Positions 215-62,577 of a DNA stretch of 64,000 nt are shown here, piece by piece. The position numbers were made by a program, and so were the translations under genes. Position 1 is the first letter of the stretch, and the number at the start of each line of letters is the position of its first letter. The notes under the pieces are model-generated. The model saw nothing but the letters and a program-made list of their open reading frames with translations, did not search any database and was not told the origin of the DNA. This DNA comes from Thuidium tamariscinum (Eukaryota; Streptophyta; Bryopsida; Hypnales; Thuidiaceae), in NCBI GenBank assembly GCA_947034885.2, contig OX344752.2:23645386-23709385 (forward strand). Reading direction: 5' to 3'.

Positions 215-1143
215 TTAACTCCTAAAGGCTCAAGGCCATTTTGGGGGGTCAAAAACCACTCAAAACTGCCATTTTTGTTGCATTTATCCAAAAGAACAAA
301 AAAAGTGTTTTTATAGAATCTAACCTTAGGATCTTCTACTTTGTTTGTCTAAGATTATGTGGTAAAAATTTCATGAAGTTTGACCTTATAGATTGGAAGA
401 TATGAGCATTCAAAGTTGGAAAACATAGTTTTGTTAAACTCTATCCTGCAATTTCAGATGACTTTCATTGCCATTTGTTGAATTTTTTTATACTATGGAC
501 TTTGAATTAAAAAAAAATTGTATTTGAAAATCGAGTTGAAAGTCTAGAAAAAAAAATTCAAAAAAAAAAATGCTTGATTTTCATTCTTTAAAAAATTATT
601 AAGTAGAGGTAGGTCCAAGATTGAAAGAAAAATTAAATCGTTAATAACTCTAAGATGGAGTTGAAACACAATATTCCTGACAGTGAGATTGTTCTATAAA
701 GGAAATTTAACCTTCGAAAGCAATTTTTTTTAAATCTGAAAATTGCATTTAGAAATGAATCCTTTAAGTTATTTTTTCTAGAAGATGTTCAAACTACCCC
801 AAAAACAAGATTGTTAATAACTTTCACATAACCAATCCAAATGGAATGAATCAAAGCTTCAAACGTAGACAAAAATATGATCTTTGAGACAAAAAAAAAT
901 TTAAATTTAATTTCAAGTTTTTGTGGATTTATTTTTCTACCCACCGACTTGAAATTTGGGCTTTTTGTGGTATAACTCTTGCTCCTAGGCGCCAATTTAA
1001 ATAAAAATTATATTCCCATCAAGCTAATCTATTTTCCTATATTCTGAGAAAGTTTCAAAAAAATTCACTAAAAATTGAGGTCATTGGAACCTATCCAAAC
1101 TCCAAATTGATTCTCAAGGGGACAATGGACTTTAAGGGATTAA
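215..1143. mobile_element. TTAA-flanked piggyBac-like non-autonomous element (family A, degenerate copy)
   Basis: The left end reads TTAA then CTCCTAAAGG at 215-228. The right end reads ggactttaaggga then TTAA at 1140-1143, so its reverse complement starts TTAATCCCTTAAAGTCC. The interior (for example the stretch around 'ccttaggatcttctacttt' at about 325-345) matches the interior of the better copy at 33,435-34,387 in the same order. Length, about 929 bp, agrees with the 945 bp of that copy. The copy is old, with substitutions in both ends. No open frame of meaningful size is present, so it is non-autonomous. Assignment to the piggyBac superfamily rests only on the TTAA flank and CCC-type ends. 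Confidence 0.6.
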
Positions 1144-2306: not shown

Positions 2307-3046
2307 TTAACCCTTAAATAATGGACTTATAACCACTAATTTAGAACCTCATTGCCCATCACTCAATTTGTTTCCATTTTTGAATTAAATATGTATAAAA
2401 AAATTATTTATTTTTTAGAGATGAAATTACATGCCTTCTTTCTTTACAAAATTTGTAGATTTTTTGTGGAGAATTGATTCTTTTGAGAATTTTTAAAGAA
2501 AAAGTGCAAAAACATCTCATCAAATAGAAAATTATTTCAAAAAGAATTGAAAATTTCACCAAATGTATATACGACACTAACAAACATCATATTATAAACT
2601 CAATACCCATGTCATTCTATAATTAGAAATTGATAGACATTGAAATTACATCCAATGTTCAAGTGACAATAAAAAATTGAATTTGAGGAATTTTTTCAAA
2701 ATTCCAATTGAAATAGAAACTAGAGTAAATGAACTTCATTTTGTTGGTGGGCTCAAACTCAAAGAATATCATTTTTGTGGAGAAATTTCAGATTTAAAGC
2801 AAGAAGTAGCAACTTTCTAAAATGCACTAAAATGACATTTTCTGTGATTCATTTTTTTTACTAACTTCTCATTCACATGAAGACAAACACTAGCAAGACT
2901 AAAATTTCAACTAGATATTCTTCACAGTTCTCCATGAAAGGTCACCAAGAAAAAAAATGGATGAAAAGATGCTTTTAGTCTCTCTCCAAATCACCTTTGA
3001 ATCATCTAAAAGCCACAAATTGACATTGCCAATATTAAGGGGTTAA
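2307..3046. mobile_element. Candidate TTAA-flanked element, about 740 bp
   Basis: The left end is TTAACCCTTAAATAATGG at 2307-2324. The right end gives TTAACCCCTTAATATTGGC when reverse complemented, ending at 3046. The ends therefore share TTAACCC and a following TTAA-TTGG-like stretch. A second 'taaggggtta' lies 15 bp downstream, suggesting a duplicated or nested right end. No interior match was established, so the call depends on the ends alone. Confidence 0.4.
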
Positions 3047-4460: not shown

Positions 4461-5303
4461 CCACCCCACCCCACCCCTTCTTCATGGCTATGTAAATATC
4501 CATATCCCTTTGAAATTCCTAATGTAAAGTGGAAAGCAAATATTTTCTCAGGTATACTCATGACTTCCTTTCAACCATGCATTTGCTACACCAATATGGG
4601 CAATTATTGTGGCCTACACTAAGGAAATTTTAGTCTATAACAGGCACAACTGTAGACATGCCTATTGTAGTCTCAAAATTCTTGTAGAGTATATGTGTCC
4701 ATCTTGTAAAATGTATTGCACAAAAAGAAGTGGGATAGCATCAAATCTATCCAAAGTTGTATTTGTCATAGGTTGAGTTACTTTAAAGTAAATTTTTCAT
4801 TTATTGCACACATCCAAAATTTGATCAACAAATATTGCCATTTACTGAACAATAATTGCATGATTCAACTACTCCAATTGAATTGCAATGAAAACAAAAT
4901 TTCATCTCATTGCCTAATGACTGCACACTGTGTGGTGAAAGGTTGCAAGGAATTTTTTAGGGTTGCTATTATGTGAGCCTATAAGTGTGAGCCTATGAGT
5001 TTAGAATACTGTACACTTGTAGTATAAGGATCTTTATTACTAAAGAAAATTTCTATGAATATTAATAGTGTATTTATATCATAGATATCTATATTATAAA
5101 TATTTATGTTAAAAGCACCTTCAATAGTAGTAGTATATCTACTTAATATATATATACACACACAAAAGGCTCACCTGCTCACATATTGGTACCATTGAGA
5201 ATTTTCAATTAGATTTCAGCCTCACCATCTTTAAATTGGAATAAAAGATATATGAATAAAGATATTTGCATTGTGCCTTTTAAAAGGAATTCTAACATGA
5301 CAT

Positions 5304-6404
5304 TTAACCTCTAAAGGACTAAGGCCCTTTTTCTATCAAAACCACTAAAAACTACCATTTTTGTTGTCATTGCCCAAAAAAAAACTTAAAAAAAACACTT
5401 AATTATAGGATCTTTTAGTTAACTTTTAGTAAAACATGACGTGGTAAAATTTTGCAAGGTTTGACTATATGGATTGAAAGGTATTTGCATTCAAAGTATT
5501 TCTTTATCCCATTTTGCCCAAAATTTTAGATGCATTTGACCACCATAAGCTAATTTTTTTGCACTACATACCTTCATTATAATTTTTTTTTCTTATAGAA
5601 AAACATATTCGGATTATACATGCCAAATTTTAAGAGAATCCAAGACATGGACCGCATCTTAAATTTTTTTGTAATGCTACATTGTCCCAAAAACTGACTA
5701 TACACTAGGCCATGTTTGAATCTTCTACTACAAAATTGAGATATTGAAAATTCAAATAGTGCATACAAAGGTATACTCATCTTTGACAACTGGAGATTTT
5801 TTGGAGATAAATTCAAAATCTCACATTTCTACAAGCAATTGAAGTCTACTACCACCTCCAAACAAGCATACAAAATGGGTAGCTCTTCTAGTATGGGACC
5901 CTTAATATTCCCAATTAGTTTCCAAGAAGTTTTTACTATGTTCAACTATTGAAAACTTGTTTTCTTGATTTCTAAACAATTAATTCACTCCTTTTTGGTA
6001 GTGATGCCAAATGGCTTAGATAATGATGGTACATTAGCTTCTAATTGTGCTAAGTCACTTAGACACGTCCACCATGGCCTCATGACTCAGACCACCATTT
6101 GCTTTCAAATCCATTTCTTTCATCCATTGTTTCTATCTTGTCCACCTCTTTTGTCCTTATATAGTCATAAGTAGATTGCCTTGTTCCAACTCGTCAACAA
6201 ATTGTTATTGGCAAAATAACACTCATAAATTCTACAATATAAGTTGAATTTCTACAAAATTTAAATGTGAGCGAAGCTTGTGAGGACTGAGGAACTATAC
6301 ACATAAAAAAAAGTTTTAGAAAATCACATTGAAGAACAATGTTGGATGAGCTTACCCAAAATCCCAAGTGTTCTCTATAGGGACTTTGGTCCTTCAGGAA
6401 TTAA
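5304..6404. mobile_element. TTAA-flanked piggyBac-like element (family A, degenerate copy)
   Basis: Left end TTAA then CCTCTAAAGGACTAAGG from 5304. The right end is tttggtccttcaggaa then TTAA at 6401-6404, which reverse complements to TTAATTCCTGAAGGACC. The start of the interior ('aaaccactaaaaactaccat') matches the left interior of the copies at 215 and 33,435. At about 1.1 kb it is longer than the best copies, so it may carry an unrecognised insertion. No transposase frame. Confidence 0.5.
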
Positions 6405-7059
6405 TAATCAATTCAAATTTCATAATATGAAAGTCTACATATTTATCTGGAAAAGGATTTGAATTTTATTTATATAGTGATTGGAAAATTTACGTTAGTA
6501 TGAATATATATTGTCACTCTTTCTTGGAAATTTGTGACCAAAAAGTTGCTAATAATATGTTTAGTATTGAATGGAATAATGTAAATACTTATAGAATTTT
6601 GTTCTTAGTGACATTATTAACCTATCCTAAAAAATATTGCAAAAAAAGATGCACAAAAATGATATAAATTCAATTTCATTACAATTCTAATTTAGATGCC
6701 ATATAAAAGTTATTAATACTAATACTAATAACACTTGATTTAAGACCATTGTGAATGAAAAATCTACTGGAGGTAGTTTGATTGCTTATACTCCTAAATA
6801 AAGTTGTGATATAAAAACGCAATTACACTCTTGATTAACAAGGAGTCAAAGAGATAATGAACTTCTTTATTTTCTACTTTCCACACAATGGTTTTATATG
6901 TGACTTATATTTCCTACATATATACACAATACAATTCAATTTTTTCCTCCAATTTTTTATTATGTAAGCCACCTATTCTATACATTGTTTACCATTGAGG
7001 TGGTGGCCCTCTAAAACAAACAAAATTGTCTTATATGGCTCTTCAACCAACTCCAATCT

Positions 7060-18150: not shown

Positions 18151-18835
18151 AAGGATGGGCTGGTCTCCATGGAAATCATGGTTTTTGAAACCATGCGAAT
18201 CATCTACTAAAAAAAATTCAAAAGTATTCTCTAGAGTCTAAACTACTATTCATGAACTCCCCTTTCTGCACAAAATTTTAAGGATGAACAATTGCATTTT
18301 TTGTGTTACATGCAAGAATTCTCTGCCATTCATCAAACACTTAGTGTCTGCAATGGCATTTTAGGGTTGACCCTTGACCCTATAAGGATGGGCTAGTCTC
18401 CATGGAAATCATGGTTTTTGAGACTGTGGGAATCATCTACTTTAAAAAATTCAAAAATATTCATTGGAGACCAATCCACTATTCATGACCTTGCTTTTTT
18501 GCACAAAATTCCAAAGATGAACAATTGCACTTCTGCCTTACATACAAGAATTCTTTATCATCCATTAGACACTTAGTGTCTGCAATGGCATTTTATAGTT
18601 TACCCTTAACTCGGTAAGGACAAACTCATTTATGTGGAAATCATACTTTTTTGAAACTATGAGAATCATATACTTTAAAAAATTCAAAAATATTCATTTG
18701 AGACCAAACCACTATTCATGACCTTGCCTTTTACACAAAATTCTAAAGATGAACAGTTGCAATTATGTCTTACATACAAAAATTCTCTATCATCCATCGA
18801 ACAATTACAATCTATAACAATATTACATCATTAAG
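18151..18835. repeat. Tandem repeat, three copies, period about 232 bp
   Basis: Units begin at about 18,151, 18,384 and 18,616 (aaggatgggctggtctccat, aaggatgggctagtctccat, then the diverged aaggacaaactcatttatgt). Each contains 'ggaaatcat', 'attcaaaaatattc', 'cactattcatgac' and 'gatgaacaattgca' in order. The first two are most similar and the third is older or mutated. No coding potential. Confidence 0.85.
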
Positions 18836-25797: not shown

Positions 25798-27712
25798 ATG
25801 GCGGAGGTGACGCTGCACGTGTATGATGTGACCAATAGTGGAAGTGTGCGTGCAAACTCTGTCATCCTGGGGTTGAATCGATTCATGCGCGGCGGAATTG
25901 GAATTGGAGGCATCTTTCATGGTGCTGTGGAGGTGAGTGAATTTGCTGACCAATTGGACGATTCAGATTGAATTCGATGCTTTGCCTTTTCCTTAATTGC
26001 AACTCGTGTATGAATTTATGGAAGAAATATTTATTTTTTGCATAGATTTCTGAGGGATTGCTGTTCCTTGCAGTGTTGATTGTATTTTTCAATCTTTAGG
26101 GTGTTTTGTGGACAGGTTTACAGCAGGGAATGGTCATTTGGCTATTGCGAAGATTGCACAGGTGTCTTCCCCTGTCAACCGAAACGGAACCCCATGTACA
26201 CCTACCGAGAAAGTATATCTTTGGGAAGGACTGAATTGACGCGCTTGCGCGTGGAAGCCGTTGTGGGAGACCTGAGTCAAGAGTGGCCGGGGGATTCCTA
26301 CGATCTTCTGGCCCGGAATTGCAACCATTTCTGCGATGTTTTTTGTGACAGGCTTGGCGTGGAGAGAGTACCATGTAAGTGTTACTTTGTTTCAACTCCC
26401 AAAGAATTTATGGTTTGAAGATGATCGTATCGTGAGTAATTACCATTTAGATGGGGCCAAATATCCTATCACCAGAATCAATATAAACGTTGCATGTCTT
26501 GGTCAAGAAGAAAGAAATTTAAGACAAAAAAGAGTCCTGATATGACTGCTAAACAAACGTGAATGCCAGTTTGAGCTTCTTGGTCCTTTAGGCGTTAACT
26601 CTGTTAAATTCTCCAAGCATGTTGGGTGAGTATGTTGTGTGAACAAGGGAGATTTGTCAATTGTCTTCCATTTTGAAGTGCACGGCCCAGTTTTTTAATG
26701 GATAAACTTTAACGCTGATTTTCTTGGACGTGTGTTGACAGTATGGGTGAACAGATTTGCGAATGCTGGTGATGCCACTTTCATAGCAGTTGACAATACT
26801 TTAGAACGGGTAAAGTATATCATTCTTTTTACTGGGTGTCACTTCTGCACATCGTAAGTCCCAAGTTGTTTATTATGCTTGAAGATTTGGGGTCATCTAA
26901 GCCTCCATCGTCAAGCCTCCATCATAATGTCTGTATCATAAGATCTGCTTCTTCTGTATACGGAGGTGATTTGGCATTCTTATTTCTCTTGATTTGTCAA
27001 ATGGTTGCTTAAACCCGTACAGACCAAGGATGCATGGTTTGGAAACGACCAATTCAATTGATTGTGCTGTGAAAAATATAATTCTGATGGGGCCAAATTT
27101 TATACCACTGTATTCAATGAACACTGCATGTCTTTGTAGAAGGAGAAAAAAATTGGGCAAAACTAAGTCTAAATATGACCTACTCTAAACTGCTATGGAG
27201 CATGGTTGCGATAATTTTTTCAACATTTCTGAATCTTTCTGAATTGAGAGTTCCAAAGGTGATCATAGCCTACTTCAAAGAGATTTGAGCTTGAAATTTG
27301 GTTGGAAAGGATAAAATGTGTGTCCATCTGATAAAAACTAGTAAATGACGCTGTTCACCTTTGTGTTTCCTTCTCTTGTATTTGGTGATTTTGTAATTTT
27401 CTGACGCAAGGGTTTTCCTTACGACAGTTGAGGCAAGCCAAAGATGAGGTGTTATCAGCGAGCAGCCGTGCTATGCAATTCATGTTTGGATCGCCTGCAT
27501 CGTCCTCAGCAACTCCCCGCTTGGACTCCACAACGCCAGACACACCTGGTAATTCAAGCATCTGTTCGCCTTTACTGCGATTTCCACTACAACTTTCCTT
27601 AACTAGTTCGCCGTCATCATCTGTGGACAGTGGCAGTAGAGATGGAAGTATCATATCTTCCTCTGATGATGACGACGCTGTGGAACAACCACCACCACCA
27701 CCAGTACCGTGA
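25798..27712 (+). CDS. PPPDE thiol peptidase (DeSI-like), four exons, 248 aa
   Basis: Exons 25798-25932, 26116-26374, 26742-26809 and 27428-27712 join in frame to 248 residues. The PPPDE fold covers about residues 3-150. The probable catalytic His is H41 in GGIFHGAVE and the probable nucleophile is C114 in LLARNCNHFCD. The segments EWSFGYCE, NPMYTYRES and EWPGDSYDLL are typical of plant members, and the block ends in WVNRFANAGD. Family members are cysteine isopeptidases, some acting on SUMO (DeSI) or ubiquitin; the substrate here is unknown. Exon 4 adds a tail rich in Ser, Thr, Asp and Pro that ends with an acidic DDDDA and a PPPPPVP run. The start was chosen because it begins right at the domain and is the first in-frame ATG. 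No signal peptide or membrane segment is visible. Confidence 0.92.
26402..26570. repeat. Intron 2 segment related to one in intron 3
   Basis: 'gatggggccaaatatcct', 'tcaatataaacgttgcatgt' and a following 'gatatgactgctaaac' have counterparts in the same order at 26,995-27,200 in intron 3. Confidence 0.4.
26995..27200. repeat. Intron 3 segment related to one in intron 2
   Basis: 'gatggggccaaattttatac', 'tcaatgaacactgcatgt' and 'aatatgacctactctaaact' parallel the intron 2 segment. It is either an intronic duplication or two copies of one small element. Confidence 0.4.
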
Positions 27713-29000: not shown

Positions 29001-32000
29001 AGTCGATGTCCAGATTAGATGGTGGAACTGAACATAATATTGTTTACCAATGAGGCAAAGGTCCCTACATTGAACAAAATTGTCTTAGATGGCTCCTCCT
29101 CAATCAACGTCAATTTTTCGAGGAATTGGTGAGTCCCTCCCAAGTATCTAGTAAAGCATATTACCTTCCTAACATAGGGAGGACCATTGCCTACTTATGC
29201 AATGTTACATATTGTAGAACAAATGGTTGGTGAATACATGAGTGATGCCAAAAAAATATTTGAATCATATACTTGTGCATTTAGATAAAATAATTGAAAA
29301 GAACCTATGACATTTTATACCTTTGGCAATATTGTTGTATTTATGTAGGGAGTGTACCCTACTTATCATTGAACAACAAGATTGTGACTTGTATCATTAG
29401 GTCAAGGAATCTAATTATGAATAGGTAGAAGCAAGATGATTGGTGGAATAAATTGAAAAAATAAAAATAAAGTAGCTCACATTTACTCTAGCTTCAAGCA
29501 ACTTTTAACTTCATATGTTGTACAAATAAAAAAGTTTGTAGGTAATTGAAAGTCATTATTCTTTGGTGCTAAGAGACATTTTCTAGTGAAAAGCTTTTAG
29601 TTTAGAAACTTTCAAGAACCTAAATTGTTTTGGAGATTTTTTTTCCACTAAAACACACAATGTTGCCACCTCTATTGAAGTTTGTGTATTATATTTATAT
29701 TTCTTGTTTTGTTTTGCATGCTACTCCACATCAATTGTACTAGTATCATTTAGATTCCTAACAAAATAGGATTGGCTAGTTCAAAGTGCATATCCAAAAT
29801 TGTACCCTTATACATGTGTATATTTAATAGATAGTCATTACAAAATGTTCAATAATATGACATTTGAAATCAAAGCATGAATTTGAAAAAGATTCCATTT
29901 GGAATTGACCTTTTATAATTTTGAATACAATAATTAAATTCTATCTTTGGATTATACCTAAGTTAAGTTACAATTTTTCTATGTATGACTAAAAAATTAA
30001 ATCTCATTTATATACAATCATAAGTGTCAAAATGTAGTGATCTCAATAATAGTTCACCTTTATTTATACAAACAAATGAAAGGATTGTGCAGGTGTTGTA
30101 ATGTCATCTATCATTGATAGCCAACGGGTCTCCATTCTATTGTAAGTTGTGAACATAGCTTGATGTACTTATGCAAGAATTGATGCACTTATATTTGTAC
30201 TAGATATAGTAGTTCCATTCTATGATTTCTAAATAATTCAAATCAATCACATTTTTGTGAATATCAACAATCCTCTTTGATATTTATTTATTTAAATTAA
30301 AAATGAACGTTACTTTGCATTTTTAATAAAATGATACCATTTAGGCAATATGAAAATCATTTTGAGATACTTTGGTTTAGACTCCTAATATATGATAATA
30401 TTACACTATAGTATATATAATATTACATTGTTTACCTTTTCATCAATAGAAGTGTTTAATTCTTGAGTTTCGACTTTCCTAATTCTTGAAATAAGGTGAC
30501 CCTAAGCTAGCACAATGTAATACAATCACACTTCTCATAATTTAAATTCCATATTTGTATAAATGGTTGTAGTTTTTTATTTCAATACTTCTTGTGTGCA
30601 TAAAGTTTGCTACATTAACCATTGATGAAACTATTTGTGTCAAATGTCACTATACTTTTTAGATGCACCACTAGTCAAATACAATTATCATATGACATGA
30701 ACATATTGACATGATTGACAATTGGCATTTGAACTTTTCTATTTGCATATTGCTAATAACTACTCCCCACTGTTCCAATACAATAAGAGAGGTTTGACTA
30801 TAACAATATTTTCAATATGTTGCCAATGAATCAGGCAAAGGATTAGAACTCCAAGTTTGCAGCAACTATGGAGGGCAGTGTTCCGCATTCCCCAAAATTC
30901 TGATTTCCTCCAATTGAATCAACAAGGCTTAACTCCTAGTATGCATTTGGAGTCCAATGCTTCTTCTAGAGAGGACCCTCTTTTGCAACTGCCATCCAAT
31001 TCTACAACAAGGCACAACATCTTCTAAAGAGGGAAATTCAACATCAATACTATATACATGCCAATACATCAAACTATTACCAAGTACTATTTGTCCTAGT
31101 ATTTCAATGGAAGTTTCTTGTAGAATATCCCTTTATGGATAACTCCTAGATGTTCAACCAACTAATGAGTGGATGGTGAATGAGCTGAGAAGTGTACTTC
31201 ATCCTATTTAATCCTATTGAAAAAGTTTGACAAAAAAATAGGTTAATATATAAACCAAATAAAGAAATGCATGAATATATAATTGATATAGATATTTTAG
31301 AGGAGTTACAATTGCTTACAATGATTTTAAAAATGATCACACAAAATCTTTTGTTTAAGCATATAAAAGTTAAATCTAAAGCTTTCATATGTATTAATAA
31401 CACATTTGTGAATATGCCAATATTAACCAAGAAATAGAAATAACCATTATTAAATGATTGGATCCAAACCTTCGATATTTCTTTGCAATAAACTCATTGA
31501 TTAACTCAATTATCAAATATGTTTTGTAATAGTTAATCTAATTTTTTGCAACAAAGACATCATTAACCCCTAAAGGACCAATTATCTATTCAAGGGATAT
31601 TGCAAACTTATGCATGTGATTATGAAGTCAAATTGGTCAGTGTTTTTGAATTTTAAAATAAATATGGGTATTCCTTTGAGAGGATTTTTTCAACTTATTT
31701 TCATCATGGTGTACTATAATTTAGTATGGTTGAGGTATAAATAATACTTTAATTCTTTAGGTATTATTTTATTGATGTGAAAATTTGAAGCTTATTATGG
31801 TTGTAAGTTTATATATATGAATGTGCATTTATATCTAAAAACCACACATATCTTCATCATATTTTATTTAGGCAACATATTTTTCAAAAGCAATACTATT
31901 TAAGACTATAGAAATGGAGTTTGGAAAACAACGATACTACCAAAATGAATGCCATATAAATAGTACTTTGTTGGCCTAGAAGGGAACTAGGATGTCATCT

Positions 32001-33434: not shown

Positions 33435-34387
33435 TTAACCCCTAAAGGTTTTGGACTATGTTTTCACCAAAACCGCTTCAAAACTGTCATTTTTTAGACA
33501 ACTATCAAATTTTTAGAAAAAAACAATTTTTGACAAAAATAACCTTAGGATCTTTTAGATAACAAGTTTAAGAATATGTGGAAAAAATTTCAGCAATTTC
33601 TGCCGTGTAGATTGCAAGATATTAGTGTTTAAAGTCACAGAAATCATTTTTTTACCACTGCGGAAATCCGGGCAGCTGCACTTCAGAAGACCATATTTGT
33701 GTGGAAAAATGTCCAAAATGATTGTAACTCTTTGGATTCATTTTTCAAGTGAAATTGGCTACATGCTTGAAAATTTTCAGATCATTTGAAATCGTACAAC
33801 ATATAGGAAAAAAATAGTAAGTAGAAAGAAGTAGAAAATGAGCCAAAACACTAAATTATTAACAATTTATTTATAGAGTTAAAAAAAAGACAATCCCAAT
33901 GGTTGTAATGTTGTGTTAAACAATATACACCCATAGTTTTTATTTTTTTTCAAAAATATTAAAAATTGAATTAAATAAAGAATTTCAAATTTTTTTTGTA
34001 GTGTAGAGATTTTATAACTAGCCAAAACTACCTCAAACTAAAAATCCTCATAACTTTTGACTCATTAATCAGAATGGAATGATTCAAAGGTTTCCACTTT
34101 GATGAAAATCAAAGAAACCAATTTCAAATTTTAATTTCTTAAAAAAGTAATTTTTGAAGAAGTTTTTTTTGCTGCCCGGGCTGCCCACCGAGTAGAGAAA
34201 TTAGATATCAACCAATAACTTTTTCACTATCTAGTCAAAAGTTATGAAAATTGTTGGGCCTTAAAGCTACTCCTCGGGCACATGTTGTGTAAAAATTTCA
34301 GAGAAAAAAACCAAAAACTCCATCTGTAATGAGCTGCCCGAAATCGCTATGTTGCCAAAAAACGCAGTTTGGTCCTTTAGGGGTTAA
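33435..34387. mobile_element. TTAA-flanked piggyBac-like element, family A (best full copy)
   Basis: It is flanked by TTAA at 33,435-33,438 and 34,384-34,387. The left end is CCCCTAAAGGTTTTGG. The right end is ccaaactgcg reversed, reading cagtttggtcctttagggg, so the perfect terminal inverted repeat is 10 bp, CCCCTAAAGG. The body is 945 bp, AT-rich, and carries no transposase frame. TTAA target duplication and short CCC-starting ends are the hallmarks of the piggyBac superfamily in established usage; membership here is inferred. The body recurs, in either orientation, at 215, 35,587, 37,899 and 38,443, with relatives at 5,304 and 61,633. Confidence 0.75.
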
Positions 34388-35586: not shown

Positions 35587-35703
35587 TTAATCCCTAAAGC
35601 CCTAAATTGCATTTTTTAGCAACATAGCAATTTCAGACAGCTCATTACAAATGGAGATTTTTTTTTTTGAAATTTTTACAAAACATTTTTCCCAAGAGTA
35701 GCT

Positions 35704-36285
35704 TTAACCCTTTAAGGACCGTGGTTGATTTGAGGGGTGATTGCAATTTCTTTACACAATTCTTGAAAAATCCCATTTTGTAATCATTCTATGAATGTAA
35801 TTTTAAACCAAATTGTATGAATTGGTTCTATAGGACAAATCCTTGAATCAAACAAAAAATAGAAGCGATCCAACTGTTCACATCTTTGGAATTAATTTTC
35901 AAAGATTAATGTGTTGCAAATAGCCTCTAGCAATGGTGCTAAATAGGGTTTGTCACAATTGGACATATATTTCACCAAATGCTTCAAAAATTGATCCTAA
36001 ACCTTCCAATTAGTTCTTTCACACATATAAGTAGTCATCTTTTACATTCATTATATATTCTTTTGCAATATTTTACATATGAAGGGCCAAACAATTTAAG
36101 TTCAGACTAGCATAGCTAATGCATTTTTGTACGCATTTCCTTGAAAATGGCTTTGTTAGAAGCATACAAAGACACTCTAATTGTGTTGTTCTCTAAGTTT
36201 TAGAAATGAGATGTTCTATAATTAATAATAGACAAAAAGTGCAAAAATCAACCCAAAAGTGATCGACCAGTCCTTAAAGGGTTTA
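35704..36285. mobile_element. Nested TTAA element with CCCTTTAAGGAC ends, 574 bp body
   Basis: Ends are CCCTTTAAGGACCGTGG on the left and cagtccttaaaggg on the right, an inverted repeat of 12 bp. It lies between TTAA (35,704-35,707) and TTTA (36,282-36,285, one base changed). The sister copies at 38,571 and 38,014 read gctttaaggtcc and gctttaaggccc without insert, so the empty target is seen. No transposase frame. Confidence 0.75.
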
Positions 36286-36467
36286 GGCCCAACAATTTTC
36301 AGAACTTTTGATTACATGGTAAAAGTGTTATGGCATAATATGTCATTTTCTTTACTCAATAGGCAACCAAGGTACCTAAGAAACTTCTTTAGGTATAATT
36401 ATTTTAAGAAACATAAATTTGAAACTGGTTTATAAATTTATATTTAAGTGGAAATCTTTCAATTCAT

Positions 36468-36739
36468 CATAAGAGTTTTTTTGGCCGTACTGGGAGATTG
36501 CAAGTTCCTAGACTAAAAGAATTCGCTGAAATCTGTTCCACAGGCAATCTGAATCAAATAATAATATTTTATTATTATTTTCCAAAATTAAACAATTTTT
36601 TAATAAATTAATAAATATTTGTTATTCTTTTATTTTTAAATTTAAATTTTATTTCTTTAATCTGGCCAACAATGACTAGTTCACAAATTGGGGAACGGGA
36701 TTGAAATAGTCTCTTAAAACCCTGAAAAAACCTCTTATG
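36468..36739. mobile_element. Inverted-repeat MITE, family C, copy 3, nested in a family A element
   Basis: It begins CATAAGAGTTTTTTTGG and ends aaaaaacctcttatg. A gttcc-type motif near the left and gggaac near the right match the other family C copies. It interrupts the family A body between 'gaaatctttcaattcat' and 'ccaattttgattaatgag'; uninterrupted copies read ttaatcattccattttgatt at about 38,748. Confidence 0.7.
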
Positions 36740-37368
36740 CCAATTTTGATTAATGAGTCAAAAGTTATGAGGGGTTCTAGTTTGTGGTAGTTTGTGGGTA
36801 GTTATGGAATCTTGACTCTAAAAAGAAAAGCTTGAAATTCTTTATTTAATTCAATTTTTAATATTTTTGAAAAAAAAAATGGGGGAAATATTTTTTATTA
36901 CAATATTACAACCATCAAGATTGGCATTTTTCATTTCCATAAACAAATTGTTCACAATTTAGTATTTTGAAGCATTTTCTATTTCTTTTTATTTTACTAT
37001 TTTTTTCCTATATGTTGTACAATTCCAAATGATTTGAGCATATAGCCAACTTGCATTGAAGATTGAATTCAAAGAGTAACCACCATTTTGAACATTTATT
37101 CATACAAATGTGACCTTGTGAAGTGCAACTAGTTGAGTTTTCAAAGGGATAAAAAATGAATTTTTGCCAATTCAAATGTTAATATCTTGCAATCTACACA
37201 GTAGAAAATTTGGAAATTTTTTCCACATCTTTTCAAACTACCTTACTACAAGATCATACAATTGCATGTGTCCAAAAATGTTTTTTTCTAAAATTTTGCA
37301 CTTGTATTAGAAATTGCAATTTTGGAGCGTTTTTGGTGAAAACATAGTCAAAAACCTTAAGGGGTTAA

Positions 37369-37898
37369 AATAGAAGATCATGCTCAAATATCAATCCTAT
37401 ATTTTCATTATTTGAAACCATAGATGGTATATTACTATAACAAATTTCAATTTCTTCTATAAATTTCTTTTATTATTATCATTTTTTTGAAAAATTATAA
37501 ATTATATATATTTGAGATTTCTCAAAAGGTGTAAGTAGCAATGTAAATTGGTATAAATTTTTTCCTATAGGTCATTTTATTTACTTACATCCAAAATAAT
37601 AATAACAAAGTCCTTAAAGTCAAATTAGGCCATTAAGCCAAATTTATTTTTTTATTTAGTTGATATACAAATTTTTCATATTTTTGGATTATGGAAAAAT
37701 TTATTTTCTATTTATGTTGTTTTTTCAAAAAATTGATGGAAAAATCAAATCATTGTGATTTTTTAAAGCTAAAGGAGGAAATTAATTAAAATATATGAAA
37801 AATAAATAAAAACATAGATTAATTAAAATATATATTATAATAAATTTTAAAAGAAGAAATGTGAAAGAAACACAAAAATATTATGTTCTTTGGATTTA
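37369..37898. other. AT-rich spacer, no gene seen
   Basis: Extremely A+T-rich with no coding frame or repeat end recognised. Confidence 0.4.
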
Positions 37899-38074
37899 TG
37901 ACTCCTAAAGGACCAAACTGCATTTTTTTGCAACATAGCAATTTTGGGCAATTCACTACCGATGGAGTTTGTTTTTTCTTTGAAATTTTCACACAACATG
38001 TGTCCAAGGAGTAGCTTTAAGGCCCAACCATTTTCATAACTTTTGACTATATGTTTCAAAGTTATTGTATGATA

Positions 38075-39528
38075 CTTCCTCTATTCCACTAAAAACCTCC
38101 TAAAATCTTCTACTTGAGGGATTAAATGTAATTTCAATTATAGTGCCAATAATACATACATTCAAGAATAAGAATCCCATCCCTTAAATCTATTCAAAAT
38201 CTTTACTGTAGGAGCTATCATTTAGACTTTCAAAATCCATGTACAAAATATGATTATTTAGTATAGTTTGTAAATGCTGCTGATTTTGTCATTTTAAATT
38301 GTTTAAAGGATAGTGGAAATACTAGGATTCTAAAAACATGTTCTCTAATCTAAATATCTACAAGAAAGAAATCTATTCTACTTTATGATCAAATTTTCAT
38401 AGCGGGGAAAGTAGTCACTAAATGCACTATCAACACTAGTGATTAACCCCTAAAGGACCAAACTGCGTTTTTTGGCAATATAGCGATTTTGAGAAGCTCA
38501 TTGCCAATAGAGTTTTTGTTTTTTTTCTTTGAAATTCTTACACAACATGTGCCCAAGGAGTAGCTTTAAGGTCCAACAATTTTCATAATTTTTGACTACA
38601 TGGTTAAAAAGTTATGACATGATATGTTATTTTTTCTACTCGGCGAGTAGCCTGGGTAGAAAAAAAACTTCTTAAAAAATTAATTTTTGGAAAAATTAAA
38701 ATTTGAAATTGGTTTCTTTGATTTTTATCTAAGCAGAAAGCTTTTAATCATTCCATTTTGATTAATGAGTCAAAAGTTTTTAGGATTTTTAGTTTGAGGT
38801 AGTTTCGGCTAGTTATAGAATCTCTACACTACAAAAAAAAGTTTGAAATTCTTTATTTAATTCAATTTTTAATTAGGTGTATATTGTTTATAAATAAATT
38901 GTTAATAATTTAGTATTTTGGCTCATTTTCTACTTCTTTCTACTTACTATTTTTTTCCTACATGTTGTACAATTCCAAATGATCTGAAAATTTTCAAGCA
39001 TGTAGCCAACTTCAATTGAAAAATGAATCCAAGGAGTTACAATCATTTTGGACATTTTTCCACACGAATATGGTCTTCTGAAGTGCAGCTGCCCAGATTT
39101 CCACAATGGTAGAAAAATGATTTTTGTCACTTCAAACACTAATATCTTGCAATCTACATGGTGGAAATTGCTAAAAAAATTTTCACATCTCTTTAAACTT
39201 GTGCTCTAAAAGATCCTGTGGTTGCTTTTGTCCAAAAATGTTTTTTTTAAAAGTTTGGTAGTTGTCTAAGAAATGATAGTTTTGAAGTGGTTTTGGTGAA
39301 AACATAGTCAAAAACCTTTAGGGGTTAAAAGAACAAAAGTACAATGTGCTTCATAAAGGCGAGGCCAATCTTGCAAATCTAATGGAATGCTTCTAAATTG
39401 TTTCATTTGCCCCCACAAGGTCATTTGATACAACCAACATTTAGTAAATGGTCGAAATTCAAAAATAGAGCTTTTAAGTAGAACAATAATTCTACCTAAT
39501 TTGGAGGTTTTTAGTAGAACAAAGGGAG
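38075..39528. mobile_element. Stowaway-like (Tc1/mariner) element with TA duplication
   Basis: It is flanked by TA at 38,073-38,074 and 39,529-39,530. The left terminus CTTCCTCTATTCCACTAAAA and the reverse complement of the right terminus, CTCCCTTTGTTCTACTAAAA, are imperfect inverted repeats that extend through a further AACCTCC. CTCCCTCCGTTCC-type ends with TA target are those of Stowaway elements. Without the TTAA element nested in it, its length is about 570 bp. No transposase. Confidence 0.7.
38443..39328. mobile_element. Family A TTAA element nested inside the Stowaway-like element
   Basis: TTAA at 38,443-38,446 and 39,325-39,328 enclose an 878 bp body with ends CCCCTAAAGG and CCTTTAGGGG, intact over 10 bp. 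The terminal ACCAAACTGCGTTTTTTGGC matches the right end of the 33,435 copy, so it lies in the opposite orientation. The body aligns throughout with that copy. Because it interrupts another element and keeps perfect ends, it is among the younger insertions. Confidence 0.8.
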
Positions 39529-39715
39529 TACCTATGTAGTTTTCATTGCTCGGCGAGTAGCTTGGGCAACTAGAAAAACTTCCTCAAAAATCACTTTTAA
39601 AAAATAAATAAAAAATTGAAATTATTTTTTAGATTTATATTCATGTGGAAAGCTTTGAATCATTTCATTTTGATTAATGAGGTGAAAGTTATGGGAGTTT
39701 TAGTTTGTGGGTAAT

Positions 39716-41614
39716 TGTTGGAAGTGGAGGCTATTTAGTTGTGTTTTGAAGTTCCAATTGGATAATTGGGATTAGTTAGGGTATCTCTTCCAATTAGATA
39801 ATTGCCAATTTTTGGTCCTTATTAGATTCATCTCTACGAGTTTTTGTTTAGCCATTGATGAAGTTCTAGTTGGAGTTTTCCAACCCATTGTATTGTGTAT
39901 TTCTCGTTATTTTGTTTTATTGTATTTGTATATGTGTGGTGAGGTGGAAAGTTGAAGTAATGATCATAATTGTAGTGGAGGAATATGAGACTATGACTAT
40001 GAAGTGTGTGAGATGTGAATATACTGATTAAAGTACAAATTTGAAATGAGTGTAAAGGTTGCGTCAAACATGGCTGAGGTGTAAGTGAGAATGAAAATAA
40101 TTTAGAAAGTTGTGACAAATCAGATGATTCAAAAATATATGTAATGGTGATATACTCACCAATTCAGTTGAATGAAATATTCGATTTAACCCTAAACCGC
40201 CCAGACCCAGTTCGCGTGATGCTAAAGCTCTGGAACGTCACAGTAGAGAATCACAACCGAATTACTAGGTTGCGCAAAATTGGACAAATTCAATGGTGGG
40301 TTTGAACATGAAGGACAGGGCGATGCTCCTTGTCACCTTGACTTGGCAATTGAGTGGCCAATTCACCTAAAATCAGTGATTCGAAGAGGCACCGTGCCGT
40401 GAAAATGAACGGAGTTATCAGCTTCTGAGAGCACAATTTTACAGATTGTGGGCATAAAGGTGTTCAATTAGAGACCAATGCGGGAAAATTTGGATGACAG
40501 TGTATACGCAAGGAGGCTGACAAAAAATTGGAGCAAACGATAACTTGCATGCCGTGATTCAAACACTTCAAATGTACGCACTTGCTGAAGGGTGACCGGT
40601 GCAGACCGGAAGTCGCTTCCTCGCGACGGGTGTGGCCAGTACCCTCAGCAACTTGCGACATTGCGACGGAACTGAGCAACACCCACACTGGCAACTAGTT
40701 TTTGCGACAAAATTGGCAAACATTTACGTTCAATTCATTGCGCCATTGTCAATGCCATACTTAGCAAAAGAACCCCAAACTAATCTTGCACCAGTGTGAC
40801 AAATTGGAATTCATAAAAAACCCAATGGGATGCCGTGATACACCACAAGAGTTCACAAAAAGTCTGCTCTGAGAGATAGAATGGAAATCACAAAATTGTC
40901 CATTGTAACTATAGCAAATGAGTAAATTGGGTAACTTACACCACAGTCATCGGAAATTTGGTACAGTAGGCTCGCTTGGCCACCACAACCCTAAGGCATC
41001 CGAAGAACTACTCTATCCCCGCTACGAACCTCGACTTAGCCATGAACGGTATGGAACCGGCTAGCCCAGGTCACTTTTGTGACATTGCTACTAACTGCCA
41101 TGTCTCGAGTTCCACCATCGCCCACTCCGACAAGCATAGCCCACATTCTCACATCGAGAAGCTTCGAGGGAGGCGCGCAATCAGTTTAGGGGAGTGCTGA
41201 TTCTCGCATTGGAGTTGAACAGGCGCTGTTGATTCTCCCTCATTGCAATATTTGAGAAAGAAAATTCGGAGAGGCCAGAATCCGTCCCCTTGGGCGGTTG
41301 AGGGTTAAGCAAATTGGTGTCATGTGGGTGTGATTGTATGATTGAATTATGTGATGTGATTGAAAAATTTATGGAGTGTGAATCCTAATTGGATAAGTTG
41401 TCAAGTTTGAGTTACATTCCTAATTGGAAGTGCAAAGTAGTTTGAGTAGCTAATAATTTTCTAGATTGGGTCATGGTTTCCTATTTTAGAATTGTATTAT
41501 CTATTTTAGATATTAGTCCATTAAGCATAGATTTCCTACTTGATTGTCTCCCTTGGAACAAACTTATTACACTAATAGGATAGTTTCCAATTTGGTAATT
41601 ATCCTTCTTCAACA
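39716..41614. mobile_element. Probable solo LTR (about 780 bp) carrying a nested TTAA element
   Basis: The insert starts TGTTGGAAGTGG and ends cttcttcaaca, the TG...CA style of copia-type LTRs with short inverted ends. It interrupts a family A body. With the nested 40,186-41,308 element removed it measures about 780 bp, the size of a lone LTR. I could not identify a matching 5 bp duplication, nor any gag or pol sequence, so the class is tentative. Confidence 0.45.
40186..41308. mobile_element. GC-richer TTAA element with CCCTAAACCGCCC ends (family D)
   Basis: Perfect TTAA flanks lie at 40,186-40,189 and 41,305-41,308. The left end is CCCTAAACCGCCCAGACC, and the right end reverse complements to CCCTCAACCGCCCAAGG, giving 12 of 13 matching terminal bases. 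The 1115 bp body is clearly GC-richer than everything around it. Short frames occur on both strands, none transposase-like. It is the innermost insertion of this nest and its intact flanks suggest relative youth. Confidence 0.75.
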
Positions 41615-42537
41615 CTACTCTAAAATAAAATTTGAAGTCCTTTATTGAATTCAATTTTTAATATTTTTGAAAAAGAACAAAAATGTTAGGTGTAGATTGT
41701 TTATTACAACATTTCAACCATTGGAATTCGCATTTTTCAGTTCTATAAAAAAATTGTCAACAATTTAGTATTTTCAATTATTTTCTACTTCTTTTTTATT
41801 ACTATTTTTTTTCTACATTTGGTACAATTCCAATTGATTTGAAAATTTCAAGTATGTAGCAAACTTGATTTTAAGAATAAATCTAAAGAGTTACAACTAT
41901 TTTGAACATTTTTTCATACAAATGTGGCCTTCTAAAGTGTAGCTACTTGGATTTTTGCAAGGATAGAAAAAAGACTTTTCTCACTCCAAACACTAGTATC
42001 TTACAATCTACAAGGTGAAAACTTTTGAAAACTTTTCTACATCTTCTCAAACTAGTGTTTTAAGAGATTATATGGTTTCATTGTCCAAAAATGTTTTTTA
42101 AAAGAAATTTGGTAGTTGTTCTAGAAATGACAATTTTGGAGCAGTTTTGATGAAAACATAGTAAAAAACCTTTAGAGGTTAAGACACAGGGCTTGCAATT
42201 GCAATAATTCTTTTAATTTTTTGAGTTTTTTCAAACTTCAAGATGATGTAAGAAGAAATATTGTCAAGACACCAAATTTTTAAAATGGGTATATTAAAAG
42301 CTATAATCAAGGTTTACCAATGCACATCCACTTTAAGTATGCGTAAAGACCTTGAGGTCTTAAACCATCCCCTTATCAATTGTGATTAGTTGAATATTAA
42401 TTTTCAAAGATTTTGGTGTTAGGACAAAGCTATGTATCAAATTTAGTGACTTTTGGAGTTAAAAATTATTAGTAATAACGTATCTTATCCAAAAATTCAA
42501 TTTTTTCAAATTGAATTCTAGTTTTTCTTTGCTTTGT

Positions 42538-43541: not shown

Positions 43542-45596
43542 ATGGAAGCTCCTCAAGGTGAGCGGAGATGGCCGATCTCCTCAAGTTGCGTGATCTCTTC
43601 AGCTATCAACACTTGCTTTTGCTTTCTCCAGGCTCATGGACGATTGTCTGTGCTTCCAGGAGATTTTGGCGAGTTAATTTGCGAGTTTCTTGAGGTTTGT
43701 GTTCATCAGCTGCTGTGCATCCGCGAGGTTTATCCACCAGGTAGGTTTACTGAGTCTCTTGCTCTCTGTTTTGCGTCCGTGGATACTCCGACTCGATACT
43801 TTTTGCTGATTTTCGTGTTGGTAACTGCTAGAGGATTCCAATGTACTGAAGAATGCGTTATTTTGATACCTTATGCGAAAGTTTTGAAGGGTTAAAGTTT
43901 TGTTAGTGGAAGTTTAAGATTGGTGATTTTGTTCGAAGTATACTGATTAAGGGGTACCGCAGCTGAATAGGGAAGTGATGCTTTGGAATCTCAAGCAATT
44001 TTGGGTGAGCCTACCTTAAATTTTTAGCCAATTTCGTGAGGGTTTTTAATTTTATGTGCAGAGATCTTCGAAAGACGGCGCCATTTTAATGTTCCGGTGC
44101 AGTGGGCTCGTCACCCTGAGTTGAGGGAGTATATACATTCGGCCGTTACTAATCTTCAGCCTTGGATTCAGCAAGTAAGGATATCTGTATCCCCAAGCTC
44201 TCATCATACATATCTTGGAAATTGGATTAACCCTCGAGGGCCTCATGTATTCTCTGGCGCTTTTTAGTGGGTCACATGGGGACTTTCTTTTGTTCAGTTT
44301 ATGTTTTTTTCGTGACTTAACATATGCATCTTGCTTCACTGATTCTACAGATTTAGAATTCCGTCTTCTGCGAATGATTTTGTTCACAAGATGATCAATT
44401 AAATTTGTCATGTAAAATACTATGAAATCTCTGTCGTGTAGGGGTGTCGAATAAAACCTGAGTCAAGCCCTGTACTGATCAAATTGGTTGATGCAATTTT
44501 AGGGCGTTGTGGAGAAAATCGCAGTAGTGTTTCTGGATGGCCACCAAGTGCCAGTGGAGAAGGTTATTTTCAAGCTATGCCTCAAGCTGGTGACAGGTGC
44601 AGGATTGCCCTCATCTCACCTCGAGTTTGCCCTTCGAGGCTTCCTCCTCAAGCTCTGCGTTTCTGATTCCGCACTGTCGCTTTTACCACCAGGTACATTC
44701 CCTTTGAAAAGTTCTCTAGCCCTAAGTGATGTCTTTATTTTGTAACTGCTACTGATCATATTTACTACCATAATACCTGTCATTTTTTTACATGTTCGTA
44801 TATGGAAATGAAAAAGGATTCCATTGCACGAAAGAATACGATATTTGCATACTGTACGCGAAGGTTACAATGGTTCAAAGTTTTTTAGGTGATTTCTAGG
44901 TGGTCTGTATTCTCTTTATCAGTGTGAAGCATTGACTGAAAATTTAGGGTGTCCCTAAACCTTAGTTGCAAAAGGTGATGTCCTGGGTAAGGGTAGCAAT
45001 AGGGTTTATCGAACCTTGCTTATGTCTTCATCAGGGTGAGGATTCTGTCTTCCTGTACTTTAGGCCTAGGGAAAATCTAAGGACTGTAGTTGGAGGTCAC
45101 AACGATCCCGATTACTTCTCTTGTGGAGTAACCCACGAGACTGTTGTGGCAATTGGGTGCTATTGCACTCCAATCCTAGAAAATTCTACGATATATGCAA
45201 CTAGCAGAGTCAAATTGAAGTGAGATAATCCCAAGGAGTAGTTGGTTGCCTTTAGAGGAATAATATTTTCATCACCGATAGAAGATTATGTGCCAAGGAA
45301 GTTTGATAACCCCAGTTCGTGCCCACAAAAGAATTGCAATAACGTTCATGAATTTAGTACTTCAATTATTCTTAGCTGGTGCAGATTGTTCGTGGGAGGT
45401 GGTGGCTTACATGAAGACACTCGATGCCGACATTTCCAGCAAAGGCCAGTATTGGGTACCAGCTGAGGAGAAGGAGGATTCAAACCAGAGCTTCACGATC
45501 ACAGCCATCAAGTCTATGCGCAGCAGTTGCTTGGACATGCAATTGTACATAGAGCACCCTGTCCCTGTAGAGGAGCCCCCAAAGAAAGAAAAGTAA
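43542..45596 (+). CDS. REV7: REV7/MAD2B HORMA-domain protein, copy A, five exons, 203 aa
   Basis: Exons 43542-43557, 43660-43740, 44062-44174, 44503-44692 and 45385-45596 join in frame to 203 residues. The HORMA fold covers about residues 8-195: GELICEFLEVCVHQLLCIRE, then FERRRHFNVPVQWARHPELR, EYIHSAVTNL, the central strand VPVEKVIFKL, LEFALRGFLLKL, and the C-terminal safety-belt part with CSWEVVAYMK and SCLDMQLYIEHP. REV7 is the accessory subunit of DNA polymerase zeta, binding REV3 peptides by safety-belt closure, and acts in translesion synthesis in the nucleus. The order and spacing of these blocks match plant MAD2B rather than the checkpoint protein MAD2. The first exon codes only five residues. 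The tail ends in a short charged PPKKEK. A paralogue follows 1.2 kb downstream. Confidence 0.88.
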
Positions 45597-46820
<1,224 letters not shown>

Positions 46821-48228
46821 ATGGAAGGCGTTCGTATCTCTGATCGAGGTACTTGCCCCGATCTTGAATGTTCTTTGAAGTTGAAGTTTTTTGCTCATTT
46901 TGATACGGTTCAATCGATGCAGCATCAAACCCTAAATCGAGAAGTGAAACCTAGCTCCGTTAGATTTTACCAATCGTAACGCTATTCCAGACGATTTTAA
47001 GTTTAAACCCGCTCAATTGTAGGTTTCAATCTGGGGCTGGGTATTCTACCAGTGATATTTTCTGTTTCGCAGGAGAGCTTGGAGAGCTGGTTTGTGAGTT
47101 TCTGGAGGTTTGCGTCCATCAGCTGCTGTGCATCCGAGAACTCTACCCACCAGGTAGAGCTCCTTCTGGAAGTTGACAGCTTTGCTTTGGCTCTGAGGTT
47201 CGGTGCTGCAATAGTAGAAAGTGGGATTTTTCTCATTCTGAACTTCATGAGAATAATCGGTTGTTGGATGTGTAGAGCTTTTTGAGAGACGGCGGCACTT
47301 CAACGTTCCTGTCCAGTGGGCTCGCCACCCTGGTTTGAGAGAGTACATCCATTCGGCAGTCACTAATCTTCACCCCTGGATTCAGCAAGTAAAGTTTTTT
47401 TTTTCTCTGACAATTTTAGCTCTGTTGAAATAGCCGTTTCCTATTCACTTGAGCTTCTGTGTGATATGGTATAACAGATTGCAAACAGTTTGGTACCAAA
47501 TCATCTTTGAGGCTTTTCACTACTTCGTTTACGGTTCCAAAGCAAGTTTGGTGCCGTTTTTTTTGCTAAGTCCTTGGTTGATTTTTCAGGGGGTCGTGGA
47601 CAAAATTACTCTTTTGGTTGTCGATACTAATCAGACGCCCGTGGAGAAATTTGTATTCAAGCTCGGCCTCAAGCAACTGTCAAGCGCCGGAGTGCCAGCA
47701 CAGCACCTTGAATTCGCCTTACGAGGCTTCCTCCTCAAGATCTCCGTTTCTGATGCGCTAATGTCGCCATTACCCTCAGGTACAAATTTTGCCAGAGAAC
47801 TTGCTGTGCTGAATTGCCTTACTGTAGGGTATCTAATGAATCCAATGAAGTTCTATCCAAAGTGAAGAGGAGCCTGGTGTACTTGTGCATTAAGTAGTAC
47901 CAAATATACTACTTTCGTTCTTCAATGATGAGAGAGCAAGGAAACTATCCAATAATGAAAGAGCAAAGAAATTGACATTAGTTTGTGTTTTGTGGGAGAT
48001 TGTTCATGGGAACTGGTAGCCTATCTGAAGTCACCCTCTCCGGACACCATCAACAAAGACCAACTTTGGATACCAGCGGATGATGAAGGTTGGGACCAGA
48101 GCTTCACAATAACATCCATCAAATCATTTCAGAGTACTTGTTTGGATATGCAGCTCCATGTGGAGCACCCCACAAACCAAAGATCAAGTGATACCGAGCA
48201 AGATGACATGTTCAACAGTATCACTTGA
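46821..48228 (+). CDS. REV7: REV7/MAD2B HORMA-domain protein, copy B, five exons, 213 aa
   Basis: Exons 46821-46848, 47073-47153, 47276-47388, 47590-47779 and 47999-48228 give 213 residues. Exons 2, 3 and 4 are 81, 113 and 190 nt, exactly as in copy A, with the same phases, so this is a DNA-level duplication. Counting by eye, exon 2 plus its junction codon matches at 23 of 27 residues and exon 3 at 35 of 38. Exon 4 differs more (DKITLLVVDTNQTPVEKFVF against EKIAVVFLDGHQVPVEKVIF). Safety-belt landmarks CSWELVAYLK and CLDMQLHVEHP are kept. The N-terminus (MEGVRISDRG) and the tail, which is longer and acidic, differ from copy A. The last acceptor, gggag, is weak, with a purine-rich lead, so that border is the least certain. 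Confidence 0.85.
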
Positions 48229-61632: not shown

Positions 61633-62577
61633 TTAATCCCTAAAGGATTGTTTATCTTCTCAAGGTATAGTTTGGATTTGGGTAGGTTTCTAATGCTCCA
61701 ACTTTCAATGAATGTTTTGAAACTTTTTGAAGATGTGTAGTTTTGGAAGAGCTTCATGAGTATGTAATTTTGATTTCAATTGGAGCCTAGGAGCAAAAGT
61801 TATGGTATAGTAAGCAAAAATGGAATTTGGTGGGTAGCACAAAAAAAATCATAGGAAGTCAAAATAATTTTTATTTCAATTTTTTCCCTCAAAGATTATA
61901 ATTTTGTCTACATGTGAAGCTTTGATTTATTCTATTTGGACTAATATTGAGAAGTTATGGATAATCTTAGTTTTTTGGACAGTCTAAGCATCTTCTTGAA
62001 AAAATAACTTGTAGAATTATTTTTTTAATGCAATTTTTAGAAATTTTCAAAAAAAATTGTTAGATAGGATTAGATTTTTTTCCAAGAATTGAGGCTAGAA
62101 TAATCTCACCATTGGAATTATTGTGATTCAATTCCATCTCAAAGCTACCAAAAATTCATTTTTTCTTCAATTTTGAACCTACATCTACTTAATAATTTTT
62201 TAATGAGTGAAAATTGAGTGTTTTTTTCCTAAATTTTTTTTGTAGATTTTCAACTCAAATATATAACATGAATAAGTAGAAAATCAAAGTCAATAGACAA
62301 GTGCAAAACTTTTAAATTCAAAAGAATCAAAGCCAAAAAATTTAGTCAAGCAAAGTACAAAAGAACTTGTTTTTTTACTTTAAACACAAATACCTTGCAA
62401 TCTACAAGTCAAAGTTTCCAAAATTTCTTCCATATTTATATAGACCAATCAAGTATAAGATCCTCCAATTGAATATTCCAAAAAAATAATCTTTAAAGTT
62501 TTTTTTCTCTTTGCAATAGAAATAACAATTTTGAATGGATTTTGGTAGGAAAATCACATTATTCCTTTAGGGGTTAA
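61633..62577. mobile_element. TTAA-flanked piggyBac-like element, family A relative
   Basis: TTAATCCCTAAAGGATTG at the left. ttcctttaggggTTAA at the right, reverse complement TTAACCCCTAAAGGAAT, so 10 of the first 11 bases after TTAA agree. Length 945 bp including flanks. Its interior recurs, without ends, at about 7,060-7,830 and 20,900-23,200. No transposase frame. Confidence 0.7.

Follow-up and report, generated by a model that had tools for sequence, protein, structure and literature searches.

A probable non-autonomous piggyBac element of a plant genome and its full-length, transposase-bearing relatives

To which transposon superfamily does the TTAA-flanked element F1 (Table 1) belong, and what could have moved it? 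The element lies in the window, by which we mean the whole 64,000-bp stretch of DNA that was analyzed (C4:23645386-23709385). Its structure is TTAA-CCCCTAAAGG...CCTTTAGGGG-TTAA, and its ends start with CCC, as the short terminal inverted repeats of the piggyBac superfamily do. This superfamily is familiar from animals, but few reports of it come from land plants. We interpret F1 as a non-autonomous piggyBac element of a moss, with a probability of about 0.95. The evidence comes from the ends of the element, full-length relatives that carry transposase genes, empty target sites and a host gene on the same contig.

F1-like elements in the window and the genome

The end motif of F1 is far more frequent in the window than expected by chance. 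With at most one mismatch, CCCCTAAAGG occurs 15 times (2.34 expected; maximum of 6 in 100 shuffles), and TTAA immediately precedes 13 of these matches. We counted inverted pairs located between equal tetranucleotides (10-nt ends, one mismatch permitted, spacing 150-3500 bp). When the ends were required to start with CC, TTAA had five pairs and every other of the 256 tetranucleotides had two or fewer, although two of the five TTAA pairs connect ends of separate elements. Without the CC requirement TTAA is unremarkable (13 pairs, versus 23 for AATT). In total, 8,662 of the 64,000 bp show similarity to the query set of piggyBac elements and their derivatives. Scans of the 64-kb window for tRNAs and Rfam families gave no matches.

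The original prediction of a TTAA-flanked element with inverted ends at this locus is confirmed, and its list of copies needs revision. Those starting at 33,435, 38443, 215, 5304 and 61,633 are TTAA elements, whereas 35,587 and 37,899 are the left ends of older, broken copies. TTAA flanks had been given for all; the copy at 37899 has lost its left TTAA. Bodies of about 880-950 bp had been predicted; the element at 5304-6404 measures 1,101 bp and that at 215-1143 measures 929 bp. Four features with TTAA-CCC ends had been overlooked: F3, F4, F7 and an isolated left end at 31563.

Table 1. Features of the window (position 1 is its first letter) and full-length elements found elsewhere in the genome
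Feature	Coordinates	Strand	Description
F1, probable non-autonomous piggyBac element	33435..34387	(-)	953 bp including both TTAA; 10-bp inverted ends CCCCTAAAGG
Second F1 copy	38443..39328	(+)	886 bp; at a TTAA within a Stowaway-like MITE
Older F1-type copy, broken	about 37898..42182	(+)	pieces 37901-38074, 39540-39716, 41615-42182; left TTAA gone
Older F1-type copy, broken	35587..37368	(+)	pieces 35587-35707, 36282-36463, 36743-37368
F4, TTAA element	35704..36285	(.)	ends CCCTTTAAGGAC / GTCCTTAAAGGG; inside older F1 copy; right TTAA now TTTA
F2, second group	61633..62577	(+)	945 bp
F6, second group	215..1143	(-)	929 bp; 80 percent identity over 901 bp with genome copy L090
F5, derivative of autonomous piggyBac L043	5304..6404	(-)	1101 bp; both end regions 70-72 percent, coding middle absent
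F3, TTAA element	40186..41308	(.)	ends CCCTAAACCG / CCCTCAACCG; within the 39711-41608 insert
F7, TTAA-CCC element	2307..3046	(.)	740 bp
Isolated left end TTAACCCCTAAAGGACCAA	31563..31581	(+)	right end not identified
Stowaway-like MITE	38076..39534	(.)	about 570 bp minus nested element; the 38443 copy inserted here
Full-length element L049			6,461 bp; frame broken by TAG
Full-length element L061, TTAA-bounded			6,471 bp; 951-codon stop-to-stop frame
Full-length element	C3:41119643-41127215		7,573 bp; 630-codon frame
Full-length element	C1:42570958-42578078		7,121 bp; 629-codon frame

Positions 35587-42182 form a nest in which two old F1-type copies are split by other insertions. The second F1 copy lies in a MITE (Stowaway-like, judging from its end sequence), and this MITE lies in the copy at 37898-42182, which is further disrupted by an insert of about 1.9 kb (39711-41608) carrying F3. 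The other old copy contains an insertion of about 280 bp (36464-36742) with the ends TAAGAGTTTTTT / AAAAAACCTCTTA. F2, F5 and F6 form a second group of elements. F7 is 71 percent identical over 617 bp to a TTAA element adjoining the autonomous element L039, and 78 percent identical over 45 bp to the terminus of L039 itself. F3 gave no blastn match to the autonomous elements, and its kinship with them is drawn from its ends.

As the original prediction had proposed, we searched the whole assembly (363,211,507 bp, 19 contigs) with the ends plus TTAA. The sequence TTAACCCCTAAAGG occurs 8,526 times (4,286 + 4,240 on the two strands), versus two matches for the reversed-sequence control; CCCCTAAAGG occurs 10,070 times, versus 364 for its control. 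Exact TTAA thus precedes 84.7 percent (8,526/10,070) of the CCCCTAAAGG matches. Among 100 listed matches of TTAACCCCTAAAGG, all from contig C1, 16 of 20 adjacent forward-reverse pairs (<20 kb apart) span 915-939 bp, whereas the 13 opposite-order spans are scattered from 297 to 19,237 bp. With F1 as the query, the scoring of 40 among 9,460 first-look candidates gave 43 rows, and 40 of these cover nearly the whole element (91-100 percent identity). Just 583 of the perfect ends have the sequence TTAACCCCTAAAGGACCAAAC, which is one end of F1.

Five end pairs were retrieved. Three of about 931 bp (L089-L091) are second-group elements, one is F1-like (L092, 704 bp) and one, L093, contains an F1-type copy. 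The last (C1:1307903, 7,555 bp between ends) was considered as an autonomous element and rejected: a complete F1-type element makes up the leftmost 952 bp, the right end is similar to those of the second group, and the whole is thus probably composed of separate elements. Between its two TTAACCCCTAAAGG ends, 7.5 kb apart (C1:1307853-1315507), there is a frame for a protein-kinase-like fragment, which may reflect gene capture. At the 3' ends of L022 and L019, and at positions 6756-6765 of L040, a single TTAA is common to a piggyBac element and a neighboring TTAA element (GGGTTAACCC), as if the edge TTAA of one element had served as the target for the next.

Full-length elements and their transposases

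We identified at least 116 genomic matches to the piggyBac transposase domain PF13843 (116 scored of 659 candidates). Each of the 116 exceeds the curated cut-off, and their frames reach up to 1,214 codons. Frame lengths are given from stop to stop. A transposase C-terminal query gave at least 150 matches (150 scored of 538 candidates). Fourteen control genomes had no PF13843 match; they also had no LEAFY match and are thus uninformative on plants. Eight TTAA-bounded elements of 5.1-7.6 kb hold piggyBac transposases, and all eight have CCC-starting terminal inverted repeats. In L039, L042, L043 and L044, the end pair encloses the transposase in about 5.1 kb each; no such pair was identified in L040 and L041, the other two of these six longer stretches. 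Like F1, the elements on C3 and C1 listed in Table 1 carry TTAACCCCTAAAGG at each of their two ends. The frame of L044 is broken by a stop and, together with L049, shows that some copies are not intact. Automatic pairing of terminal repeats at 30 loci gave no pairs (0/30), with flanks of 1,500 bp that are too short to include both ends. The prediction that an autonomous partner should exist is thus borne out by full-length TTAA-CCCC elements with a PF13843 DDD transposase in the same genome.

The proteins of L039, L042, L043 and L061 match PF13843 only (Pfam, E <=0.001). Among PDB structures, at the same threshold, L043 and L061 match only 6x67 and piggyBat (9c0f). L043 aligns with 6x67 (8.9e-33) including the catalytic motifs, and the best match of L061 is piggyBat (9.7e-21). 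We take 6x67 and 6x68 to be the piggyBac (IFP2) of Trichoplusia ni, and the catalytic columns to correspond to D268, D346, D447 and D450. In an alignment of 32 proteins (30 PF13843 loci plus L061 and L087), all 32, of which 11 are near-identical copies, have aspartate at the four columns. In a strict motif search, 30 of 37 frames had the complete set of three motifs. Clustered at 80 percent identity, the 32 sequences form 15 groups, one of which comprises the 11 near-identical copies. Cysteine-rich C-terminal tails are visible in L061, L087, L042 and L043; there was no Pfam match to this region in L061, L042 and L043, which were scanned.

F1 is connected to these elements through its ends. In reverse complement, positions 1-125 of F1 align with 1-125 of L061 (70 percent), and 575-953 align with 6093-6471 (67 percent), so that the alignment is anchored first base to first base and last to last. 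The matches to L061 and L049 score 114-117 bits, versus 39.2 for the best of 500 dinucleotide shuffles. At the 5' end of C3:41119643-41127215, 37 of 40 bases agree with F1; at the 3' end 29 of 40 agree, with the first 20 all identical. The second group shows the same arrangement: L091 aligns with L043 at 1-106 to 1-106 (77 percent) and at 628-931 to 4841-5143 (71 percent). Among 3' ends of transposase loci, gathered to look for a direct parent of F1, we identified a TTAA-CCC end in 4 of 11 first-round stretches (L050-L060) and in 9 of 11 extended stretches (L076-L086). In all seven pairs of related 3' ends compared, identity inside the element is 88-100 percent over 170 bp (gapped alignment) and only 14/58 to 36/100 outside (ungapped), and this contrast indicates that the element limits are real. 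The TTAA-CCCC boundaries enclose the transposase frames and are common to independent copies with unrelated flanks.

The closest relatives of F1 are L061, L049 and the two elements on C3 and C1 (C1:42.57M), and none of them is near-identical. Away from the tips, F1 is 67-72 percent identical to the full-length copies, and none of those examined matches F1 between about 380 and 730. Thus, its direct parent was not found, nor was it present among the 3' ends of the transposase loci. In form, F1 is an internal-deletion derivative that lacks the coding middle.

An autonomous relative would make the DDD transposase, which would bind the ends of F1 and excise it. The excised element would be joined into a TTAA site, so that the four bases would end up on either side of it. 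Cut-and-paste chemistry is that of the T. ni enzyme. We infer both this chemistry and movement in trans by the moss transposases. The autonomous families with CCCCTAAAGG ends reported above are the probable source of the enzyme that moved F1.

Target sites, recent activity and alternative interpretations

Empty sites are available within the same genome as paralogous copies. When the MITE flanks of the 38443 insertion were joined and used as a query, 40 scored of 823 candidates gave 48 rows, one of which is the window itself. We chose 13 Stowaway copies (L062, L064-L075) for a match running across the site, and all therefore lack the insert. An exact single TTAA is present in nine of the 13, and one base is altered in four (TTCA, TTAC, GTAA and GTAA); at the filled site, TTAA borders the insert on each side. 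At the F4 site, three of three paralogous copies are empty and carry a single TTAA; in the filled copy, the left flank reads TTAA and the right one TTTA. Empty sites without TTAA would have spoken against the original prediction; those found carry a single TTAA, either exact or with one base altered. The data fit a TTAA duplication.

By themselves, however, the empty sites are compatible with duplication of either TTAA or TA (with an element reading A...T), and thus the transposase class decides. A Tc1/mariner-type MITE with TA duplication, a strong T-TA-A preference and ends ACCCCTAAAGG is formally consistent with the sites, and Stowaway-like MITEs do occur in this genome. Their ends in the window are quite different from those of F1, though. 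Such an element would have CTCCCTCC-like ends and a mariner transposase; the ends of F1 differ, and PF13843 is what the full-length relatives sharing its type of ends encode, so we consider this origin very unlikely. TTAA by itself also cannot tell superfamilies apart, as Kolobok and Sola3 duplicate the same target, and the piggyBac genes could in principle be unrelated neighbors of such elements. This, too, is highly improbable given that the elements examined with these ends encode a piggyBac transposase inside TTAA-CCCC limits that are common to independent copies. Among the elements examined, the longer relatives with the same ends encode the DDD transposase of PF13843, rather than one of another class, which the original prediction had named as a contrary outcome.

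It is a separate matter whether these elements are still mobile. They could be dead piggyBac relics, with the F1 family extinct and the open frames chance survivors. Several copies in the window are broken or diverged, the identity of F1 to full-length elements is low off the tips, and 42 of the 116 scored transposase matches contain an internal stop (hand count). However, copies of F1 at other loci are up to 99 percent identical to it, and another, autonomous family is nearly uniform. It has 11 copies (L020-L030) with a frame of 1,023 codons; over 3,984 bp, nine of them are one base away from L020 and one is two bases away. The differences fall at different places, and the sequences past the 3' end, the side compared, are unrelated between copies. 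Plant-like neutral rates are about 5e-9 per site per year, at which this family would be tens of thousands of years old at most. The 11 near-identical copies are strong evidence for very recent movement of this autonomous family, and offer indirect evidence for recent activity of the F1 family. We thus regard the relic interpretation as unlikely. With less confidence than for F1 itself, we lean towards a native, currently active piggyBac system in the moss, with many autonomous families, working DDD transposases and thousands of non-autonomous derivatives, which would make it a major land-plant DNA transposon.

The host and comparison with known systems

The original prediction of a plant genome is supported by a LEAFY gene (L045) on the same contig as the window. 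The best PDB match of its DNA-binding region is 4bhk (238.5 bits; the other four LEAFY chains score 106.5-173.2), which we take to be LEAFY of Physcomitrella. Like 4bhk, it has D in place of an Arabidopsis H and C in place of an Arabidopsis R, residues that we assume to mark type II LEAFY. By LEAFY type, the host is most likely a moss, and it would be a land plant in any case. Type II LEAFY occurs mainly in mosses, with class Bryopsida of type II and one liverwort type II gene, according to a passage of PMC6588583. Beside the one strong LEAFY match, there are weaker SAM_LFY-like domains (L046, L047, L048; five rows, E 6.1e-9 to 1.5e-4).

With its 0.95 kb, F1 exceeds the usual length of a MITE. 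Like the plant MITEs Stowaway and Tourist it is short, non-autonomous and present in high copy number, but those have another transposase class and target. The moss elements share with T. ni piggyBac (IFP2) the TTAA target, CCC-starting ends and a PF13843 DDD transposase. Unlike it, they have long stop-to-stop frames with low-complexity N-terminal parts and a land plant host. They are also larger (5.1-7.6 kb versus 2,472 bp, as given in a passage of PMC10140906). piggyBat belongs to the same superfamily; what sets the moss transposases apart is their diversity.

Plant repeat surveys use the same superfamily name for entries in a table row and a list, which in the portions consulted come without a full-length coding element. 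A repeat table for the fern Ceratopteris gives 1,230 PiggyBac fragments (PMC6890710), and a review passage includes PiggyBac among the MITE superfamilies of angiosperms (PMC10004981). The introduction of a 2025 paper describes piggyBac as occasional in plants, naming red algae (PMC12732532), and plants appear among piggyBac hosts without detail in a passage of PMC10140906. In a moss paper (PMC10619864), the passage with the word concerns expression piggybacking. Searching by title and abstract opening, we found no paper on native piggyBac in bryophytes, although earlier annotation (e.g., in Repbase) is possible; nor did the literature searched include an abundant, recently active native piggyBac of a land plant. 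The superfamily is already known, and what is unusual is the host, the diversity and the recency.

In animal genetics, piggyBac is a workhorse transposon. The moss system opens several questions to test: by what route piggyBac reached land plants and spread there, how it is controlled in a haploid-dominant plant, and whether a plant-native piggyBac could serve as a seamless tool. The 15 groups among 32 sequences, the thousands of shared ends and the near-identical autonomous copies make these questions testable.

We also identified other features in the window. Two sets of open frames (44503-45593 and 47434-48225) encode similar peptides (HLEFALRGFLLK, ITAIKS/ITSIKS and CLDMQL), which suggests a tandem gene duplication; a Pfam scan of one frame from these sets gave no match. 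A 233-bp tandem repeat occupies 18164-18807 (2.8 copies, 81 percent matches), and an exon of a PPPDE (Peptidase_C97) protein is present at 26080-26415.
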